Both the position numbers and the translations under genes were made by a program. This document shows, piece after piece, positions 5,790 to 42,444 of a DNA stretch of 64,000 bases. The notes below the pieces were generated by a model. The model was not told the DNA's origin. It made no database searches and saw only the letters and a program-made list of their open reading frames with translations. Positions within the stretch are counted from its first letter, which is position 1. Each line of letters opens with the position of its first letter. Origin of the DNA: Flavobacterium yafengii (lineage in GTDB: Bacteria > Bacteroidota > Bacteroidia > Flavobacteriales > Flavobacteriaceae); the NCBI RefSeq assembly GCF_030010375.1, contig NZ_JASCRY010000004.1, forward strand, positions 248,001 to 312,000, read 5' to 3'.

Positions 5790-6890
5790 TTAACCCTTTA
5801 TGTTCTCTATAAATTGATCAAATAAATAAGAAGAATCATGTGGTCCTGGGCTTGCTTCCGGATGGTATTGAACTGAGAAACAATTTTTGTTTTTCATACG
5901 CATCCCTGCAACCGTTCCATCATTTAGATGAAGATGTGTAATTTCTAAATCAGGATGATTATCCAATTCTTCTTTGTTAACGGCAAAACCATGATTTTGA
6001 GAAGTAATTTCTCCTTTTCCGGTAATGATGTTTTTTACAGGATGATTGATTCCTCTGTGCCCATTAAACATTTTATAAGTCGAAATTCCGTTTGCCAAAC
6101 CAATTACTTGATGTCCAAGGCAGATTCCGAATAAAGGCTTGTCATTTTCAAGAATTTCTTTTGCAACTTGAATAGCTCCAGAAAGCGGCTCTGGATCACC
6201 AGGTCCATTGGATAAAAAATATCCATCCGGGTTAAAACCAGCTAAATCTTGGTAAGAAGAATCAAAAGGAAATACTTTGATATAGCAATCTCTTTTGGCA
6301 AGATTACGAAGGATATTCATTTTTATTCCCAAATCTAGAGCGGAAATCTTATAGGTTGCATTCTCGTCACCAAAGAAATAAGGTTCCTTAGTTGATACTT
6401 TAGAAGCTAATTCTAACCCATTCATGTCTGGAACTTTTGCCAATGCAATTTTTAGATCTTCAATTGAAGTTTCATCCGTACAAATTACAGCATTCATCGC
6501 TCCGTTATCACGAATGTAACTTACCAGAGCACGCGTATCTACGTCAGATATGCAGATCAGGTTTTGTTTAATAAAATAGTCTTCTAAACTCCCTGAAGCG
6601 TCTTCACGAGAATAATTGAAGCTAAAATTTTTACAAACCAATCCAGCAATTTTAATGCTATCTGATTCAATTTCTTTCTCATTCACCCCATAATTTCCAA
6701 TATGGGCATTTGTAGCTACCATTAATTGACCAAAATAAGAAGGGTCAGTAAATATTTCTTGGTAACCTGTCATTCCTGTGTTAAAACAAACTTCTCCAAA
6801 AGTAGTTCCACTGATTCCAATAGATTTACCATGGAATATGGTTCCGTCACTTAATAGAAGAATTGCTTTTTGTCGTGTTGTATATTTCAT
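5790..6890 (-). CDS. carA: Carbamoyl-phosphate synthase small (glutaminase) subunit
   Basis: Provides ammonia from glutamine to the CarB subunit for carbamoyl phosphate, the precursor of pyrimidines and arginine. The 366 residues comprise the N-terminal CarA-specific domain (about 1-175) and a class I glutamine amidotransferase domain. The nucleophile Cys257 is in GICLGHQ, and the partners His343 and Glu345 are in QYHPEA. carB is not adjacent, at least within this window, which is common in this group. It starts at ATG 6888-6890, about 75 bases downstream of a full Bacteroidota promoter. It converges with the esterase gene. Confidence 0.97.
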   Translation of the reverse strand: MKYTTRQKAILLLSDGTIFHGKSIGISGTTFGEVCFNTGMTGYQEIFTDPSYFGQLMVATNAHIGNYGVNEKEIESDSIKIAGLVCKNFSFNYSREDASGSLEDYFIKQNLICISDVDTRALVSYIRDNGAMNAVICTDETSIEDLKIALAKVPDMNGLELASKVSTKEPYFFGDENATYKISALDLGIKMNILRNLAKRDCYIKVFPFDSSYQDLAGFNPDGYFLSNGPGDPEPLSGAIQVAKEILENDKPLFGICLGHQVIGLANGISTYKMFNGHRGINHPVKNIITGKGEITSQNHGFAVNKEELDNHPDLEITHLHLNDGTVAGMRMKNKNCFSVQYHPEASPGPHDSSYLFDQFIENIKG

Positions 6891-6965
6891 TCGTTGATTT
6901 CTATTATTTTTTTAATAGTCTCATGGAACTCGCAAAGCTCGTTTCATTTGTAGTTAAATATTGTG

Positions 6966-6996
6966 CAAATTTAATTCATTAAAGCAATGGATGCAA
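6966..6996 (-). promoter_or_regulatory. Promoter of carA
   Basis: Read on the minus strand: TTG (6994-6996), a 20-base spacer, then TAAATTTG (6966-6973), matching the Bacteroidota -33/-7 consensus. Transcription would begin near 6960, giving a leader of about 70 bases before carA. Confidence 0.65.
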
Positions 6997-7033
6997 GTTT
7001 TTGAAATTTATTGTAAAATAAAAACATTCTAAT

Positions 7034-7117
7034 CTAGCCTTGATGGAAACGGCATCCTTTTGCTTTTTCTTTTAAAGCAAAAAATACGGTGAACAGCAGG
7101 ACAATACGCCATTAAAT
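7034..7117 (+). repeat. Structured intergenic repeat, copy A
   Basis: Shares the block GATGGAAACGGCATCCTTTT with the copy at 32865-32955, and a similar 3' block (GTGAACAGCAGGACAATACGCC here). Between them, TTTTGCTTT (7058-7066) pairs perfectly with AAAGCAAAA (7074-7082). It sits between the rplQ terminator and the carA promoter. No convincing protein is encoded. The family resembles short repeats seen in other Flavobacterium intergenic regions; its function is unknown. Orientation is defined by the GATGG end as 5'. Confidence 0.7.
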
Positions 7118-7143
7118 CCCAAGGTTTTTGCTCCGAAAAAATC

Positions 7144-7178
7144 AAAAAAAAAGGATAAACTATAAATAGCTTATCCTT
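7144..7178 (-). terminator. Terminator of the ribosomal supercluster after rplQ
   Basis: On the minus strand AAGGATAAGCTA pairs with TAGTTTATCCTT (one G-U pair) around a TTTA loop, and eight or more U follow. It lies about 30 bases past the rplQ stop and closes the long leftward ribosomal transcript. Confidence 0.92.
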
Positions 7179-7206
7179 GATTTTTATTGAATGATTATTT
7201 TCATAA

Positions 7207-7692
7207 TTACTCAGCAGTCTCTGTAGTTGTTTCAGTTTCGGCAGCTGGAGCTTCAGTAGCTTCATCTTTCTTAGCTTTACCACCACGACGGCTTTTTGCT
7301 TTTTTAACTTCTTTTTTACCACCATTGTAAAGTTCATTGAAATCTACTAATTCGATCATTGCCATATCAGCATTATCTCCTAAACGATTTCCAACTTTAA
7401 TGATACGAGTGTATCCACCTGGACGGTCTCCTACTTTAGCAGCTACGTCTCTGAACAAGTCAGTTACGGCATATTTGCTACGTAAGTAAGCAAAAACGAT
7501 ACGACGATTGTGAGTCGTATCAGCTTTAGATTTTGTTATAAGCGGCTCAACGAATTGTTTAAGCGCTTTTGCTTTAGCGACAGTAGTGTTAATACGTTTG
7601 TGCTCGATAAGAGAACAAGCCATATTAGCTAACATAGATTTTCTATGTGCAGTCTGTCTGCTTAAGTGATTGAATTTTTTTCCGTGTCTCAT
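7207..7692 (-). CDS. rplQ: 50S ribosomal protein L17
   Basis: Large-subunit protein near the exit tunnel. Residues 1-120 carry the L17 fold, with an N-terminal [20 protein letters not shown] close to universal. The protein has 161 residues, about 40 more than the E. coli form, because of a Lys/Arg-rich stretch and then an Ala/Glu/Thr-rich tail ([18 protein letters not shown]) that is low-complexity and probably disordered. Such tails are frequent in Bacteroidota. It is the last gene of the alpha block, 31 bases after rpoA and followed by a strong terminator. Confidence 0.98.
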
Positions 7693-9343: not shown

Positions 9344-9433
9344 TTCTAAAAATTAAATTAAGGTAGAGATTATGAATTCAGGTCATATCCTTCGATAATC
9401 GTATATTCTACCTAGTTATACTTAAATATATAA

Positions 9434-31959: not shown

Positions 31960-31997
31960 AAAAATGAATCAAGACTCCGGTTTTGATTCATTTTTTT
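31960..31997. terminator. Bidirectional terminator overlapping the rhomboid stop codon
   Basis: AAAAATGAATCAA pairs with TTGATTCATTTTT over a 9-11-base loop. The hairpin spans the last codons and the TGA of the leftward rhomboid gene and also lies 50 bases past rlmB, so it can end both transcripts. Confidence 0.8.
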
Positions 31998-32757
31998 CAT
32001 TTGAGACAATCTCATAACCGACAGGATAATTGGAAGTATAATACGTTGAGAATTCCTGCTGCTCTTCGTTTTCTTCAATTTTTGGAATATTTACAAAATT
32101 TCCATTGGCATCGAAACGTTGCATAAATTTATCTTCTGAAGCATCAAAATCTGGGTGCTCCCAATCATACTTAATGACCTTTTTATACTCAGGAGTTTTA
32201 TAAACTAACGAAAGAAAGAATCCAGTAAGTAATCCCCCCAAATGACCTTCCCATGAAATGGATTTATTTCCCGTTATCTCAGGGCTAGGAAAAACATACC
32301 AAACCAATCCACCATACACAACTATTACGGCAAGAGACAAAGCTACCAATCGATTATATTTCGTTTGTATACCTTTAAAAAAAACAAAACTAAAGAGGAC
32401 ATAAATTAACCCGCTTGCCCCTATGTGATAATTTTCTCTGCCAATAACCCAAGTAATAAATCCCGATATTAAAATTCCGTATCCAATAACTTTTATGGAT
32501 TGATCCGCATAAAAAAATTGCAAAGCTGCCAATAAAATTAGCAAGGGAATCGAATTATTATAAAGATGTTCCATATCAGCATGAATGAATGGACTAAACA
32601 AAACACCTTGTAAACCTGAAAAAGTTCTAGGGTAAATACCGTTTTGCACAAAATCAAAATCAAATCGGATTTCGAGCCAAAAAACAAACCACAGGAATAC
32701 CACAAAAAAAAGTGGCAACCCAATAACTGAATTGGTAAATTTAAAATGCTTTTCCAT
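31969..32757 (-). CDS. Rhomboid-family intramembrane serine protease
   Basis: 262 residues with at least six hydrophobic segments. The catalytic dyad is intact: Ser115 in GASGL and His172 in GHLGG; the HADMEHLYNN motif (59-68) is the conserved loop-1/TM2 His-Asn block. Rhomboids cleave transmembrane substrates within the lipid bilayer; the substrate here is unknown. A charged cytoplasmic tail of about 65 residues (191-262), rich in Glu and Asn, follows the last membrane segment. It is divergent from rarA across about 300 bases that hold a structured repeat. Confidence 0.92.
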   Translation of the reverse strand: MEKHFKFTNSVIGLPLFFVVFLWFVFWLEIRFDFDFVQNGIYPRTFSGLQGVLFSPFIHADMEHLYNNSIPLLILLAALQFFYADQSIKVIGYGILISGFITWVIGRENYHIGASGLIYVLFSFVFFKGIQTKYNRLVALSLAVIVVYGGLVWYVFPSPEITGNKSISWEGHLGGLLTGFFLSLVYKTPEYKKVIKYDWEHPDFDASEDKFMQRFDANGNFVNIPKIEENEEQQEFSTYYTSNYPVGYEIVSNEKNESKPES

Positions 32758-32864
32758 TAATCTTATAAAGTTTTATGCTCTTGTTATAATTCAAAAACTT
32801 CTCCAAAAGCAATTTAATGCTATTTTGTCATATTTAAACTGAAAACCATTTTTTAATGCTACTC

Positions 32865-32955
32865 CCTAGCCCAGATGGAAACGGCATCCTTTTATATCTC
32901 GTTTTTTCAACGAGATATAAAAGATATAGTGTACAGCTGGAAATAGCTCCAAATA
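32865..32955 (+). repeat. Structured intergenic repeat, copy B
   Basis: It begins CCTAGCCCAGATGGAAACGG and ends GTACAGCTGGAAATAGCTCC. Inside, CTTTTATATCTCGTT (32889-32903) pairs perfectly, 15 of 15, with AACGAGATATAAAAG (32909-32923) over a 5-base loop. The outer blocks match copy A (7034-7117) and partly copy C (41729-41873), whereas the inner arms differ in sequence but still pair. It lies between the divergent rhomboid and rarA genes and encodes no evident protein. Function unknown. Confidence 0.75.
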
Positions 32956-33055: not shown

Positions 33056-34333
33056 ATGGAAGCACCACTTGCAGAACGCATACGACCACAAAAATTAGAA
33101 GACTACATCAGTCAATCCCATCTTGTAGGACCAAATGGCTCATTAACGCAACAAATTGCAAAAGGAATTATTCCGTCATTAATTTTTTGGGGACCACCCG
33201 GAACAGGAAAAACAACTTTGGCACAAATTATTGCACAAGAATCAAAACGACCCTTTTATATTTTAAGCGCTATCAATTCTGGTGTTAAAGATATACGTGA
33301 TGTGATAGAAAAAGCGAAGCAAAGTGGTGGTTTATTTACCGCTAAAAACCCTATTTTATTCATCGATGAGATTCATCGTTTTAGCAAATCACAACAAGAT
33401 TCCCTGCTGGCAGCGGTAGAAAAAGGTTGGATTACTCTTATTGGCGCCACTACAGAAAACCCGAGTTTTGAAGTAATTCCTGCATTACTATCTCGTTGTC
33501 AGGTATATATTTTGAATGCTTTTACCAAAAAAGATTTAGAATCTCTGCTAGAACGCGCCATGAGAACAGACAGCTATTTGTCTACAAAAAATATTATTTT
33601 AAGCGAAACAGAAGCGCTACTAAGACTTTCCGGTGGAGACGGACGCAAACTATTAAATATATTTGAACTTGTCGTAAATGCATCTAATGAAGATGAAATT
33701 TTAATCACAAATGACCTCGTTTTCTCCTTAGTGCAACAAAATACCGTTTTGTATGACAAAACCGGCGAACAACATTATGACATTGTATCTGCTTTTATAA
33801 AATCAATTAGAGGAAGTGATCCTAATGGTGCTGTATATTGGCTTGCCCGAATGATTGAAGGCGGTGAAGATGTAAAATTTATTGCCCGAAGAATGCTCAT
33901 TTTAAGTAGTGAAGATATAGGAAATGCTAATCCAACTGCTTTTATTATGGCTAATAATACTTTTCAGGCTGTTGCTACAATTGGATATCCTGAAAGCAGA
34001 ATTATTTTGAGCCAATGCGCCGTTTACCTAGCGACTTCTCCTAAAAGTAACGCTTCCTATTTAGCCATCGGAACGGCTCAACAACTTGTAAAACAAACTG
34101 GAGATTTACCGGTTCCTATTCACTTACGTAATGCTCCCACGAAATTAATGAAAGAATTAGGTTATGGTGAAGAATACAAATATTCGCACGATTACACCAA
34201 TAATTTTGCTGAACAAGAATTTTTACCTGAGGCATTAAGCAAAACTCCAATATATGTTCCTGGAAACAATTCCAGAGAAAACAGTATCCGAGAATTTCTT
34301 AAAAACCGTTGGAAAGATAAATACGGATATTAA
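33056..34333 (+). CDS. rarA: Replication-associated recombination protein A (RarA/MgsA AAA+ ATPase)
   Basis: Clamp-loader-like AAA+ ATPase acting at stalled replication forks. It has 425 residues. Walker A is GPPGTGKTT (46-54), Walker B is DEIH (104-107), and sensor 1 is in GATTEN. The C-terminal tetramerisation domain includes [14 protein letters not shown] and SEDIGNANP, hallmarks of the family. The start ATG begins [17 protein letters not shown], the standard N-terminus. It is a single-gene unit ending in the long palindrome at 34335-34381. Confidence 0.96.
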
Positions 34334-40381: not shown

Positions 40382-41653
40382 TTATTTAAGTGCTTTCACC
40401 ATCACTTTATCAATCTTCACGCCATCCATATCAATGACTTCCAACTCAAATTTTTGCCAAATCAATTTCTCTCCTTGTTTAGGAATATGAGAGAGTTCCG
40501 TCATTATTAAACCACTCACCGTGGTTACTTCGTAATCATTGATCAATTCATCTAATTCAAAGTAAGTCAAGAAATCATGTAACGAATAATGTCCGTCAAC
40601 AAGCCATGTTCCATCTTCTCTTTCAATCAATTGAAAATCATCTTTATAAAAATCAGAAGCATCACCAACTAGAGCTTCCAGAATATCATTTAATGTAATA
40701 ACTCCCTGAAAAACACCGTACTCGTCAGAGACAAATGCATAATGTATTCCTGATTTTTTAAAATTTTCCAGAGCTACGTATGCCGTGGTTTGCTCCATCA
40801 TAAAAGGAGCTTCGGTCATTATATCTGCCAAATTGAAGTTTTCATTTTCAAAATGTGCAAAGATATTTTTTAGGTTAACCACTCCAACAATATCATCATA
40901 ATTTTCACCGTAAACCGGATAAATAGAATGTAATTCCTTAAGCATAAATTCCTTAACCTGTTCTTTATCAGAATGAAAAGGCAAAAAAACCACCGACTTC
41001 CTATGCGTCATCAATGAGTTTATTTTTCTATCTCCAATATGAAAAACGCGTTCTACAATATCTTGTTCTATTTCCTGCACTTCTCCTCCTTCGGTTCCTT
41101 CTTTGATAATCGCCTTTATTTCCTCTTCGGTTACTTTACCATCAGCAGTAGGTTTTATTTGCAAAATATCCAATAAAAAATCTGTTGAATGCGTTAACAA
41201 CCAAATAAATGGTGCCGTAACTATCGAAACTATTTTCATGGGTAGTGCAACTGCTTTTGCTATTGCTTCCGGATGATTTAATCCAATTCTTTTAGGCAAT
41301 AACTCTCCTAGAACTAAAGAGAAAAAGGTCAAAATAACTACAACTAGACCTACTGCAACTGGATGCGCGTAGGGTTTTATAAATTCAAATCCGCTTACAA
41401 AAGTTTCTACATCTAAAGTTATTTTATCACCACTATAAATACCGGTAAGAATTCCTATCAGTGTGATTCCTATTTGTACCGTTGATAAAAATTTATTTGG
41501 CGAATTGGCCAAATCTAATGCGATTTTAGCACTTTTATTCCCTTTTTTTGCTGCGGTCTCTAATCTGTTTTTTCGAGCTGAAATCAATGCAATTTCCGAC
41601 ATAGAGAAAACCCCATTTAATAGTATTAGAAAGAATATAATTAGTATTTCCAA
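40382..41653 (-). CDS. CNNM/CorC (hemolysin-C-like) family membrane protein with CBS domains
   Basis: 423 residues. The N-terminal DUF21 domain has three to four membrane segments (MEILIIFFLILLNGVFSMSEIALISARKNRLE, TVQIGITLIGILTGIYSG, LVVVILTFFSLVLGELLPKRIGL). Two CBS motifs follow at about 205-325 (LMTHRKSVVFLPF, IMTEAPFMMEQTTAYVALENFKKSGIHYAFVSDEYG), then a CorC_HlyC transporter-associated domain (FQLIEREDGTWLVDG). Family members are implicated in magnesium/cobalt efflux; haemolysin is a legacy name. It lies between adk and obgE and is bordered by repeats on both sides. Confidence 0.92.
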   Translation of the reverse strand: MEILIIFFLILLNGVFSMSEIALISARKNRLETAAKKGNKSAKIALDLANSPNKFLSTVQIGITLIGILTGIYSGDKITLDVETFVSGFEFIKPYAHPVAVGLVVVILTFFSLVLGELLPKRIGLNHPEAIAKAVALPMKIVSIVTAPFIWLLTHSTDFLLDILQIKPTADGKVTEEEIKAIIKEGTEGGEVQEIEQDIVERVFHIGDRKINSLMTHRKSVVFLPFHSDKEQVKEFMLKELHSIYPVYGENYDDIVGVVNLKNIFAHFENENFNLADIMTEAPFMMEQTTAYVALENFKKSGIHYAFVSDEYGVFQGVITLNDILEALVGDASDFYKDDFQLIEREDGTWLVDGHYSLHDFLTYFELDELINDYEVTTVSGLIMTELSHIPKQGEKLIWQKFELEVIDMDGVKIDKVMVKALK

Positions 41654-41728: not shown

Positions 41729-41873
41729 TTAGCCCAGATGGTAATGAAAAGCCCGGAGTTAAAAAAGCTAATTTTTCTTGTCAAAAAAGAGCGACCAAAG
41801 GAACCTCCTTTTATGACTTAGAAAGATAGATTTTTTTAACGAGGACTTGTAATGTACAACTGGAATTGCTCCT
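41729..41873 (+). repeat. Structured intergenic repeat, copy C (longer variant)
   Basis: It starts TTAGCCCAGATGGTAATG and ends GTACAACTGGAATTGCTCC, matching the ends of copy B. The middle is longer and different: GTTAAAAAA (41758-41766) pairs perfectly with TTTTTTAAC (41832-41840), and AAGCCCGGAG nearby can partly pair with GAGGACTT. The 3' end touches the adk stop codon (41872-41874). It lies between the CNNM start and adk. Confidence 0.65.
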
Positions 41874-42444
41874 ATAAATTATCAATCACGTTACTTACTC
41901 TTTCTGTAATTTCTGCAATAGAACCTATTCCATTTACTGCGTGAAATTTCCCTTGCTCCTGATAATAATTCATTAAAGGAGCTGTTTTTTCATTGTATTC
42001 CTGGTAGCGATTTCTGATTTTTTCTTCATCTTGATCGTCAATTCTTCCACTTGTTTTTCCTCTTTCCAATAGGCGTTGCACTAAAATCTCATCATCGGCT
42101 TCGAGTGCAATTGTCGCTGCAACTTGAGAACCTATTGAAGTAAGAAATGCGTCTAAAGCTTCGGCTTGTGAAATTGTTCTTGGATATCCGTCAAACAATA
42201 TCCCATTAGTATCCGGATGTTTATTTACCTCATCAATAAGCATTTTTGTAGTCAATTCATCTGGAACTAAATCTCCAGCATCCATAAATACTCTTGCTTG
42301 TTTGCCTAGTTCTGTATCGTTTTTTAAATTAAAACGAAATACATCACCAGTTGATATATGTGTTAATTTGTATTTTTCTTTCAAAAACTCTGCTTGAGTT
42401 CCTTTACCAGCTCCTGGTTTTCCAAATAAAACAATGTTAGTCAT
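41872..42444 (-). CDS. adk: Adenylate kinase
   Basis: Interconverts ATP + AMP and 2 ADP. It has 190 residues with P-loop GKPGAGKGT (8-16), the AMP-binding LTHISTGDVFR and DGYPRTISQAEAL, and an ATP-lid region VQRLLERGKTSGRIDDQ that is short and lacks zinc-binding Cys residues, hence the short-lid form. It lies 12 bases after hpt. Its stop codon abuts repeat copy C. Confidence 0.98.
   Translation of the reverse strand: MTNIVLFGKPGAGKGTQAEFLKEKYKLTHISTGDVFRFNLKNDTELGKQARVFMDAGDLVPDELTTKMLIDEVNKHPDTNGILFDGYPRTISQAEALDAFLTSIGSQVAATIALEADDEILVQRLLERGKTSGRIDDQDEEKIRNRYQEYNEKTAPLMNYYQEQGKFHAVNGIGSIAEITERVSNVIDNL

Follow-up and report, generated by a model that had tools for sequence, protein, structure and literature searches.

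Flavo-1 elements in Flavobacterium yafengii: a base kept by selection as structure, inheritance in place and exchange of the tip

We analysed a 64,000-nucleotide stretch of Flavobacterium yafengii DNA (the window) and found that its three structured intergenic repeats are copies of Flavo-1 (RF01705), an element whose base is kept by selection as structure, which is inherited in place at most sampled loci, and whose tip is now and then exchanged or inverted, as seen at several loci, without disturbing the base. The family itself is already known and catalogued; these three properties are what is new, in a literature searched by the names Flavo-1 and RF01705. In its available text, Weinberg 2010 (PMC2864571) presents Flavo-1 as a probable RNA of the Bacteroidetes that is not cis-regulatory. 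A F. psychrophilum transcriptome study (PMC9723704), in the part available, places Flavo-1 matches sense, antisense or outside transcribed regions, with no consistent transcription and no function given. The preliminary description of the window knew of no described function, and none appears in the portions of the papers found under those two names (for RF01705, the 2010 paper alone); that description did not name the family, which was already described. Among the structured intergenic elements of Flavobacterium, Flavo-1 is one of the more abundant, and a function has been lacking since 2010.

Flavo-1 copies in the window and their distribution

The sequence TAGCCNNGATGGNAA has three perfect matches in the window, at 7035, 32867 and 41730, where three repeats had been noted. 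Their borders had to be redrawn: the 3' end is the GCTCC block, and the 3' extension of the first copy had been cut short, giving extents of about 7035-7134 (copy A), 32867-32950 (copy B) and 41730-41872 (copy C), all on the forward strand. When the window was searched with the full set of Rfam families, RF01705 matched copy B (32864-32947, 74.3 bits, E 1.7e-14) and copy A (7032-7107, 64.1 bits, E 1e-11); copy C, with the same basal arms as A and B, scored 34.6 bits, under the curated cut-off of 42 bits. The window also holds an S4-Flavobacteria ribosomal protein leader at 9368-9400 on the reverse strand (RF03141, 50.7 bits).

Copy B is a full Flavo-1 between two divergently transcribed genes (neighbours of all copies were named from Pfam), a rhomboid gene (31969-32757, reverse) and a rarA/mgsA-like gene (33056-34333, forward). 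Its 5' basal arm TAGCCCAGATGGAAACGGCATCC (32867-32889) pairs in predicted folds with the 3' basal arm, which runs into the GCTCC border (32923-32950), and the exchangeable tip hairpin TTTTATATCTCG...CGAGATATAAAA lies between them (32890-32922). Copy B folds strongly (RNA z -4.95, DNA z -6.33), its basal helices being predicted in the sense strand and not in the antisense strand. Copy C is a long form between a CNNM/CorC-type gene (40382-41653, reverse) and adk (41872-42444, reverse), its last base coinciding with the C of CTA, which is the adk stop codon on the opposite strand. It carries a conserved tip module at 41772-41826, with the core AGAGCGACCAAAGGAACCTCCT at 41788-41809, and its predicted fold is good for RNA (z -3.30) and less clear for DNA (z -1.84). 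Copy A lies between carA (5790-6890, reverse) and rplQ (7207-7692, reverse), has the 3' extension GGACAATACGCC...TTTTTGCTCC, and is recognised by its RF01705 match and GCTCC border; it or a recognisable derivative is present in 10 of 12 relatives. Although each copy had been described as pairing perfectly, copy A is decayed: shuffled sequence folds as well as its sense strand does (RNA z -0.82, DNA z +0.24). Between rplQ and copy A a terminator-like hairpin follows rplQ at 7151-7178 on the reverse strand (one found against 0.2 expected from shuffles); it is the sole terminator-like site in 6880-7260 and is outside copy A. As for Flavo-1 as an intrinsic terminator, no T run follows the hairpin, and A-rich sequence follows the element.

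In its plain form the element reads TAGCC C N G A T N G N A H H - loop - ATCC - tip - GAT - loop - H'H' G N A N' A G C N' G G A - AATA - GCTCC. The lower helices have 2-4 pairs each, with GNA/GNA-like 3x3 loops between them, and the upper loop comes in two interchangeable types, GGCATCC with GATANAG and GGAAATCC with GATTGNAAC. The plain form is elaborated in three ways: a 3' extension ahead of GCTCC, as in copy A; GCGTGA...TCACGC ends with a second hairpin (22 copies in F. yafengii by a simple motif test); and the long form with the conserved tip module AGAGCGACCAAAGGAAGCTCCT, as in copy C. This last module has 12 matches in the F. yafengii genome, all inside Flavo-1-like arms as judged by eye. 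A second repeat, TTACTTCACT...GGAGTTCAGTGAACTTCGTTTG, lies within one arm of several F. yafengii copies (C1:781117, C10:512192, C1:444249, C18:99786), and its presence differs between species at the same locus (orthologs in genomes G230 and G193). Basal arms are also interrupted by small palindromes, TCCCGAAGCTTCGGGA for example, at C1:80444 in G007, G215 and G308, and at copy A in G085.

The preliminary description had also proposed a family with further copies, and these are abundant. The F. yafengii genome has at least 108 RF01705 matches at E<=1 and at least 93 above the cut-off, lower bounds because scoring covered 150 of the 1185 first-look candidates. Matches at 1e-4 are present in 26 of 40 relatives, and within the genus the number per genome ranges from 0 to at least 87 (up to 89 candidates counted). 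Among 14 control genomes, five have matches at E<=1 and none has a match above the cut-off. A pattern scan of named genomes gave at least 80 loci; among the 83 matches listed, 68 have a full 3' arm, and their labels include Flavobacterium, Chryseobacterium, Halpernia, Epilithonimonas, Pedobacter and several Bacteroidetes metagenome bins. Viral contigs gave 12 pattern matches, one of them (L298) with a matching 3' arm; copy B had no blastn match in the plasmid or phage collection, and carriage by plasmids or phages was rejected. The full 3' arm is missing from 26 of 95 pattern matches, including two copies in a Treponema metagenome bin (L380). These two copies, outside the Bacteroidetes, look genuine: their basal arms are those of Flavo-1, their tips are GC-rich and they end in GGGT. 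Contamination of the bin is possible.

Selection on the base, inheritance in place and exchange of tips

Pairing was counted at the four variable basal pairs (N10, N14, H18, H19) in 211 parsed copies, 142 from the genus and 69 from the pattern scans (68 on genome contigs and one on a viral contig). The counts leave out a further 69 of 211 pooled sequences, which did not parse as plain-form elements, and the scan pattern fixed some 5' letters, not their 3' partners. The 844 cells comprise 782 Watson-Crick, 20 G-U, 5 A-C and 37 other combinations. In the F. yafengii copies (n=75) Watson-Crick pairs number 73, 70, 72 and 67 at the four positions, compared with shuffled means of 26.0, 25.7, 41.5 and 36.9; in the copies from other contigs (n=69) they number 68, 66, 68 and 67, compared with 26.2, 22.5, 44.9 and 34.5. 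Shuffling leaves 33-65% Watson-Crick pairs, and each pair beats all 2000 shuffles in both sets. Conserved basal pairing with covariation, one of the marks of Flavo-1, is present, and because of this covariation the basal part is seen to be under selection as structure. The expectation that change would preserve pairing beyond chance is thus upheld at the basal pairs; with further copies in the genome as well, neither of the two outcomes named beforehand as refuting the preliminary description holds. The evidence for structural selection comes from these helices and not from the inner arms.

Changes at the same locus, given as double compensated/single still paired/broken, number 16/6/3 in G215, a relative at about 83% identity, 17/6/5 for copy B, and 5/4/7 in G193, a relative at about 92% identity, so that G193 alone has no excess of compensation. 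In ortholog pairs the basal arms are more alike than the flanks, with identities of 0.929 vs 0.842 in G193 (p 0.0017) and 0.868 vs 0.705 in G215 (p 0.0008), a conservation that is partly ascertained, since presence was scored through the arm pattern.

Inheritance was followed by comparing orthologous gaps, as had been suggested for these repeats, in a sample of 60 randomly ordered copies from the 107 with usable context (110 minus 3); 40 anchors per genome were scored, best first, which favours conserved genes. Flavo-1 is in the same gap for 34/40 sampled copies in G193 (30 by pattern and 4 by eye, one of these in opposite orientation) and for 28/40 in G215 by pattern (3 anchored on one side only; one remnant uncounted). 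The variable basal positions agree in orthologs at 0.857 (G193) and 0.678 (G215), well above the 0.40-0.41 of non-orthologs, so copies are not as a rule scrambled wholesale with one another. Copy C has an ortholog in both of these relatives, and the copy at C1:80444 is kept in 10/10 relatives. Copy B is found in 23 of 29 relatives: in all 21 of the first set, which were best matches and biased to presence, and in 2 of 8 added later; its absence from the other six makes its conservation weaker than it seemed at first. Where copy B is missing in L163 and L164, TAGTAGCTTC is kept at the expected place, followed by the usual right flank, possibly a deletion scar between the TAG start and the TAGCTCC end. 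The copy at C1:784226 is present in 3 of 9 relatives, and the other six have different sequence; in G230, the one translated, the gap holds a 57-aa ORF and is not an empty site. Among the absences in G193 and G215, no clean insertion or empty site with target duplication was found.

The tips behave differently from the arms. In the parsed ortholog pairs tip identity is 0.721 vs 0.842 for the flank in G193 (p 0.024) and 0.614 vs 0.705 in G215 (p 0.058), and an arm of at least 0.90 identity is joined to a tip below 0.75 at 7/21 loci in G193 and 4/18 in G215. These counts retain the G193 pair at C1:444249, which is probably misaligned, and at C10:226834 (in both genomes) two of the swapped tips reflect presence or absence of an inserted module and not a full swap. 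Identical basal arms carry unrelated tips at C17:148193 and C1:464180 in G193 and at C1:736807 in G215, and the ortholog of copy B at L149 likewise has identical arms and a different tip. One tip module (AGAAAAACAAGG..., AGAAAAACAAGGCTTTTT...) has 12 matches in eight genomes, 11 of them inside Flavo-1 tips with differing basal arms. At C1:464180, where the F. yafengii tip differs from that of G193, two other relatives have the F. yafengii module; at C1:1360808 the tip module is present in G230 and F. yafengii has a plain hairpin. Inversion is seen at C1:937170, where, against 2.6 kb of aligned flank, the G125 tip lies the other way round from the tips of F. yafengii and G007, and at C1:1571679 of F. 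yafengii, where the long-form module of copy C is inverted relative to its arms as judged by eye. Tip differences also occur in single-contig genomes (G306 at C1:80444), and some drafts could be misassembled. Linkage between tip and basal type is weak (p 0.065 at tip identity >=0.8). The inner arms had been said to differ between copies and yet to pair; the difference stands, but at some orthologous loci much of it is a whole tip exchanged or inverted and not base-by-base compensation.

Folded DNA, transcribed RNA or a repeat without host function

The reading that we tentatively put foremost, at less than even confidence, is that Flavo-1 is a DNA hairpin bound by a putative host protein, and the weaker conservation of copy B lowered our confidence in it slightly. 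The sense strand is predicted to fold as an imperfect hairpin, with short basal helices and GNA/GNA-type internal loops; the base would be the putative protein-binding site, acting as folded single-stranded or cruciform DNA and not as transcribed RNA. Any hairpin can serve as tip, as several loci show; closing the hairpin would be its sole requirement, leaving it free to change. Tips would probably be exchanged during replication, either by template switching or by short gene conversion from one copy to another, and would flip through recombination between the tip's own arms. For a possible replication-strand bias the signs are mixed. The strand of an element tends to be opposite to that of genes (rho -0.23, p 0.016) and shows no correlation with raw GC skew (rho 0.08, p 0.40); once the skew is corrected for gene strand, the element strand does follow it (rho 0.39). 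On contig C1 the runs of orientation are unremarkable (p 0.55). Tip exchange through breaks made by the hairpin nuclease SbcCD was rejected for F. yafengii, whose genome has no SbcD (TIGR00619) match. Within the genus, five genomes with SbcD have 0, 61, 0, 15 and 1 Flavo-1 copies vs 3-87 in 20 without (p 0.019, uncorrected for kinship, with a sub-threshold match in G004 counted as absent); among 41 genomes overall the inverse association fails outside the genus, where G025 and G028 combine SbcD with Flavo-1 and many others lack the two. A fuller version of the DNA-hairpin reading is a chassis-and-cassette arrangement in which a base that folds as a single strand marks fixed sites and is read by a putative protein, tips swap or flip, and the element is kept mainly in lineages without SbcCD; we consider it improbable in this complete form.

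That Flavo-1 is a functional RNA, either a small RNA or a protein-binding hairpin borne on transcripts, is assumed by the Rfam entry and its discoverers and seems to us possible but somewhat doubtful. It would account for the strand-specific fold of copy B, the symmetric purine-rich internal loops and the long form, whose tip module in copy C retains identities of 0.95 in G193 and 0.90 in G215. The excess of G-U over A-C combinations (20 vs 5; p 0.004, with cells treated as independent though they are not) is also what RNA predicts, as would a single DNA strand. G-U pairs are nevertheless rare, at 20/802 standard pairs in the base (2.5%) vs 48/461 (10.4%) in 22 tRNAs, and tips are likewise low (17 G-U, 4 A-C, 1341 Watson-Crick); this scarcity could equally come from replacement of whole arms. 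Upstream of 75 copies there is no conserved promoter-like block or common signal. The 110 contexts comprise 51 codirectional gaps with the element opposite, 24 with it in the same direction, 23 divergent gaps, 9 convergent gaps and 3 unassigned, so that 51/75 elements in codirectional gaps run antisense to the two genes beside them (51 vs 24, p 0.0024). Together with the position of copy B between divergent genes, that of copy A beyond a terminator-like hairpin, and the mixed placement and inconsistent transcription of F. psychrophilum matches in the available text of PMC9723704, these observations favour DNA over RNA. The balance is modest: copies in operon-sized gaps are probably transcribed, which counts against DNA, as does the fact that this analysis found no protein partner.

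A further possibility, in our view unlikely, is that Flavo-1 is a REP-like or MITE-like repeat without host function, spread by a putative transposase, with template-switch repair and exchange among copies preserving the pairing. The wide range of copy number within the genus, the occurrence of both orientations, the palindromes inserted in or beside the arms and the near-identical whole copies at separate loci (C1:784226, C1:736807, C1:80444) would fit such a repeat, as would the resemblance between the 5' arm and a P. mendocina REP, GTAGCCCGGATGCAATCCGGG, in the part of the published record available. Near-identical copies at different loci would also fit the mobile element raised in the preliminary description, but most sampled copies are fixed, with no clean insertion and no transposase linkage in 20 regions, leaving that suggestion weakly supported. 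The retention of copies in their places across wide divergence also speaks against a neutral repeat, as do compensated changes within helices that mismatched loops keep apart, and the other sequence with a small ORF in relatives lacking the C1:784226 copy. An origin as REP elements of a RAYT was tempting, as the sole F. yafengii Y1_Tnp match (E<=1e-5) is about 0.4 kb from a Flavo-1 copy (41.8 bits, on one side; 15 of 20 regions were rescanned permissively), and was rejected on 20 regions. Y1/RAYT-like genes occur in 20/40 genomes; in 20 Y1 regions from 16 genomes Flavo-1 lies near two only, on one side each, where copy density gives a rough expectation of about one, and no RAYT is flanked by it. 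A copy above the cut-off is near the Y1 gene in one of these regions (L287, about 1.2 kb off), and G004, G011, G019 and G021 have many copies and no Y1 match at 1e-5. The foot of the hairpin reads YYYTAGCC, with G at -1 in about 1% of 75 copies, and lacks the GT[AG]G tetranucleotide. Five RAYT-like loci examined have other hairpins alongside, as likewise reported beside genes of RAYT subclass 2.6 in the available text of PMC6006769. In the F. yafengii region (L275) the RAYT-like gene has a repeat of its own on its flanks, CCGCTACCGCACGAATCCTTTCGTG with inverted copies, and the one lying upstream starts TAGCCCCG, as Flavo-1 does.

The combination of a selected base, a mostly fixed position and an exchanged tip leads to testable claims about the folding strand, a protein that binds the base, and a mechanism of tip exchange that spares it.

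Comparison with known systems

Integron attC sites have a conserved imperfect base and a variable terminal hairpin and are folded as a single strand. Flavo-1 shares this base, terminal hairpin and one-strand fold, but it lacks cassette arrays, and the attC consensus is absent from the Flavo-1 arms examined. REP/RAYT systems, as presented in the available parts of PMC2817692 and PMC6006769, resemble Flavo-1 in consisting of many short intergenic hairpins with preserved pairing, and its TAG-CCNG foot resembles that of GTAG-tagged REPs; Flavo-1 differs in being longer, in having internal loops, in lacking GTAG and in not flanking the RAYT-like genes examined. The closest system is RF01705 itself, whose sequence and structure model matches over the full length, with copies A and B above the cut-off and in the same taxa. 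Differences from it are the long conserved tip module of the low-scoring copy C and the further form with GCGTGA...TCACGC ends and a second hairpin. In Rfam the family is classed as an sRNA gene, whereas no evidence of a discrete transcript was found here; if the DNA reading is true, an entry catalogued as 'RNA' would belong among DNA elements.
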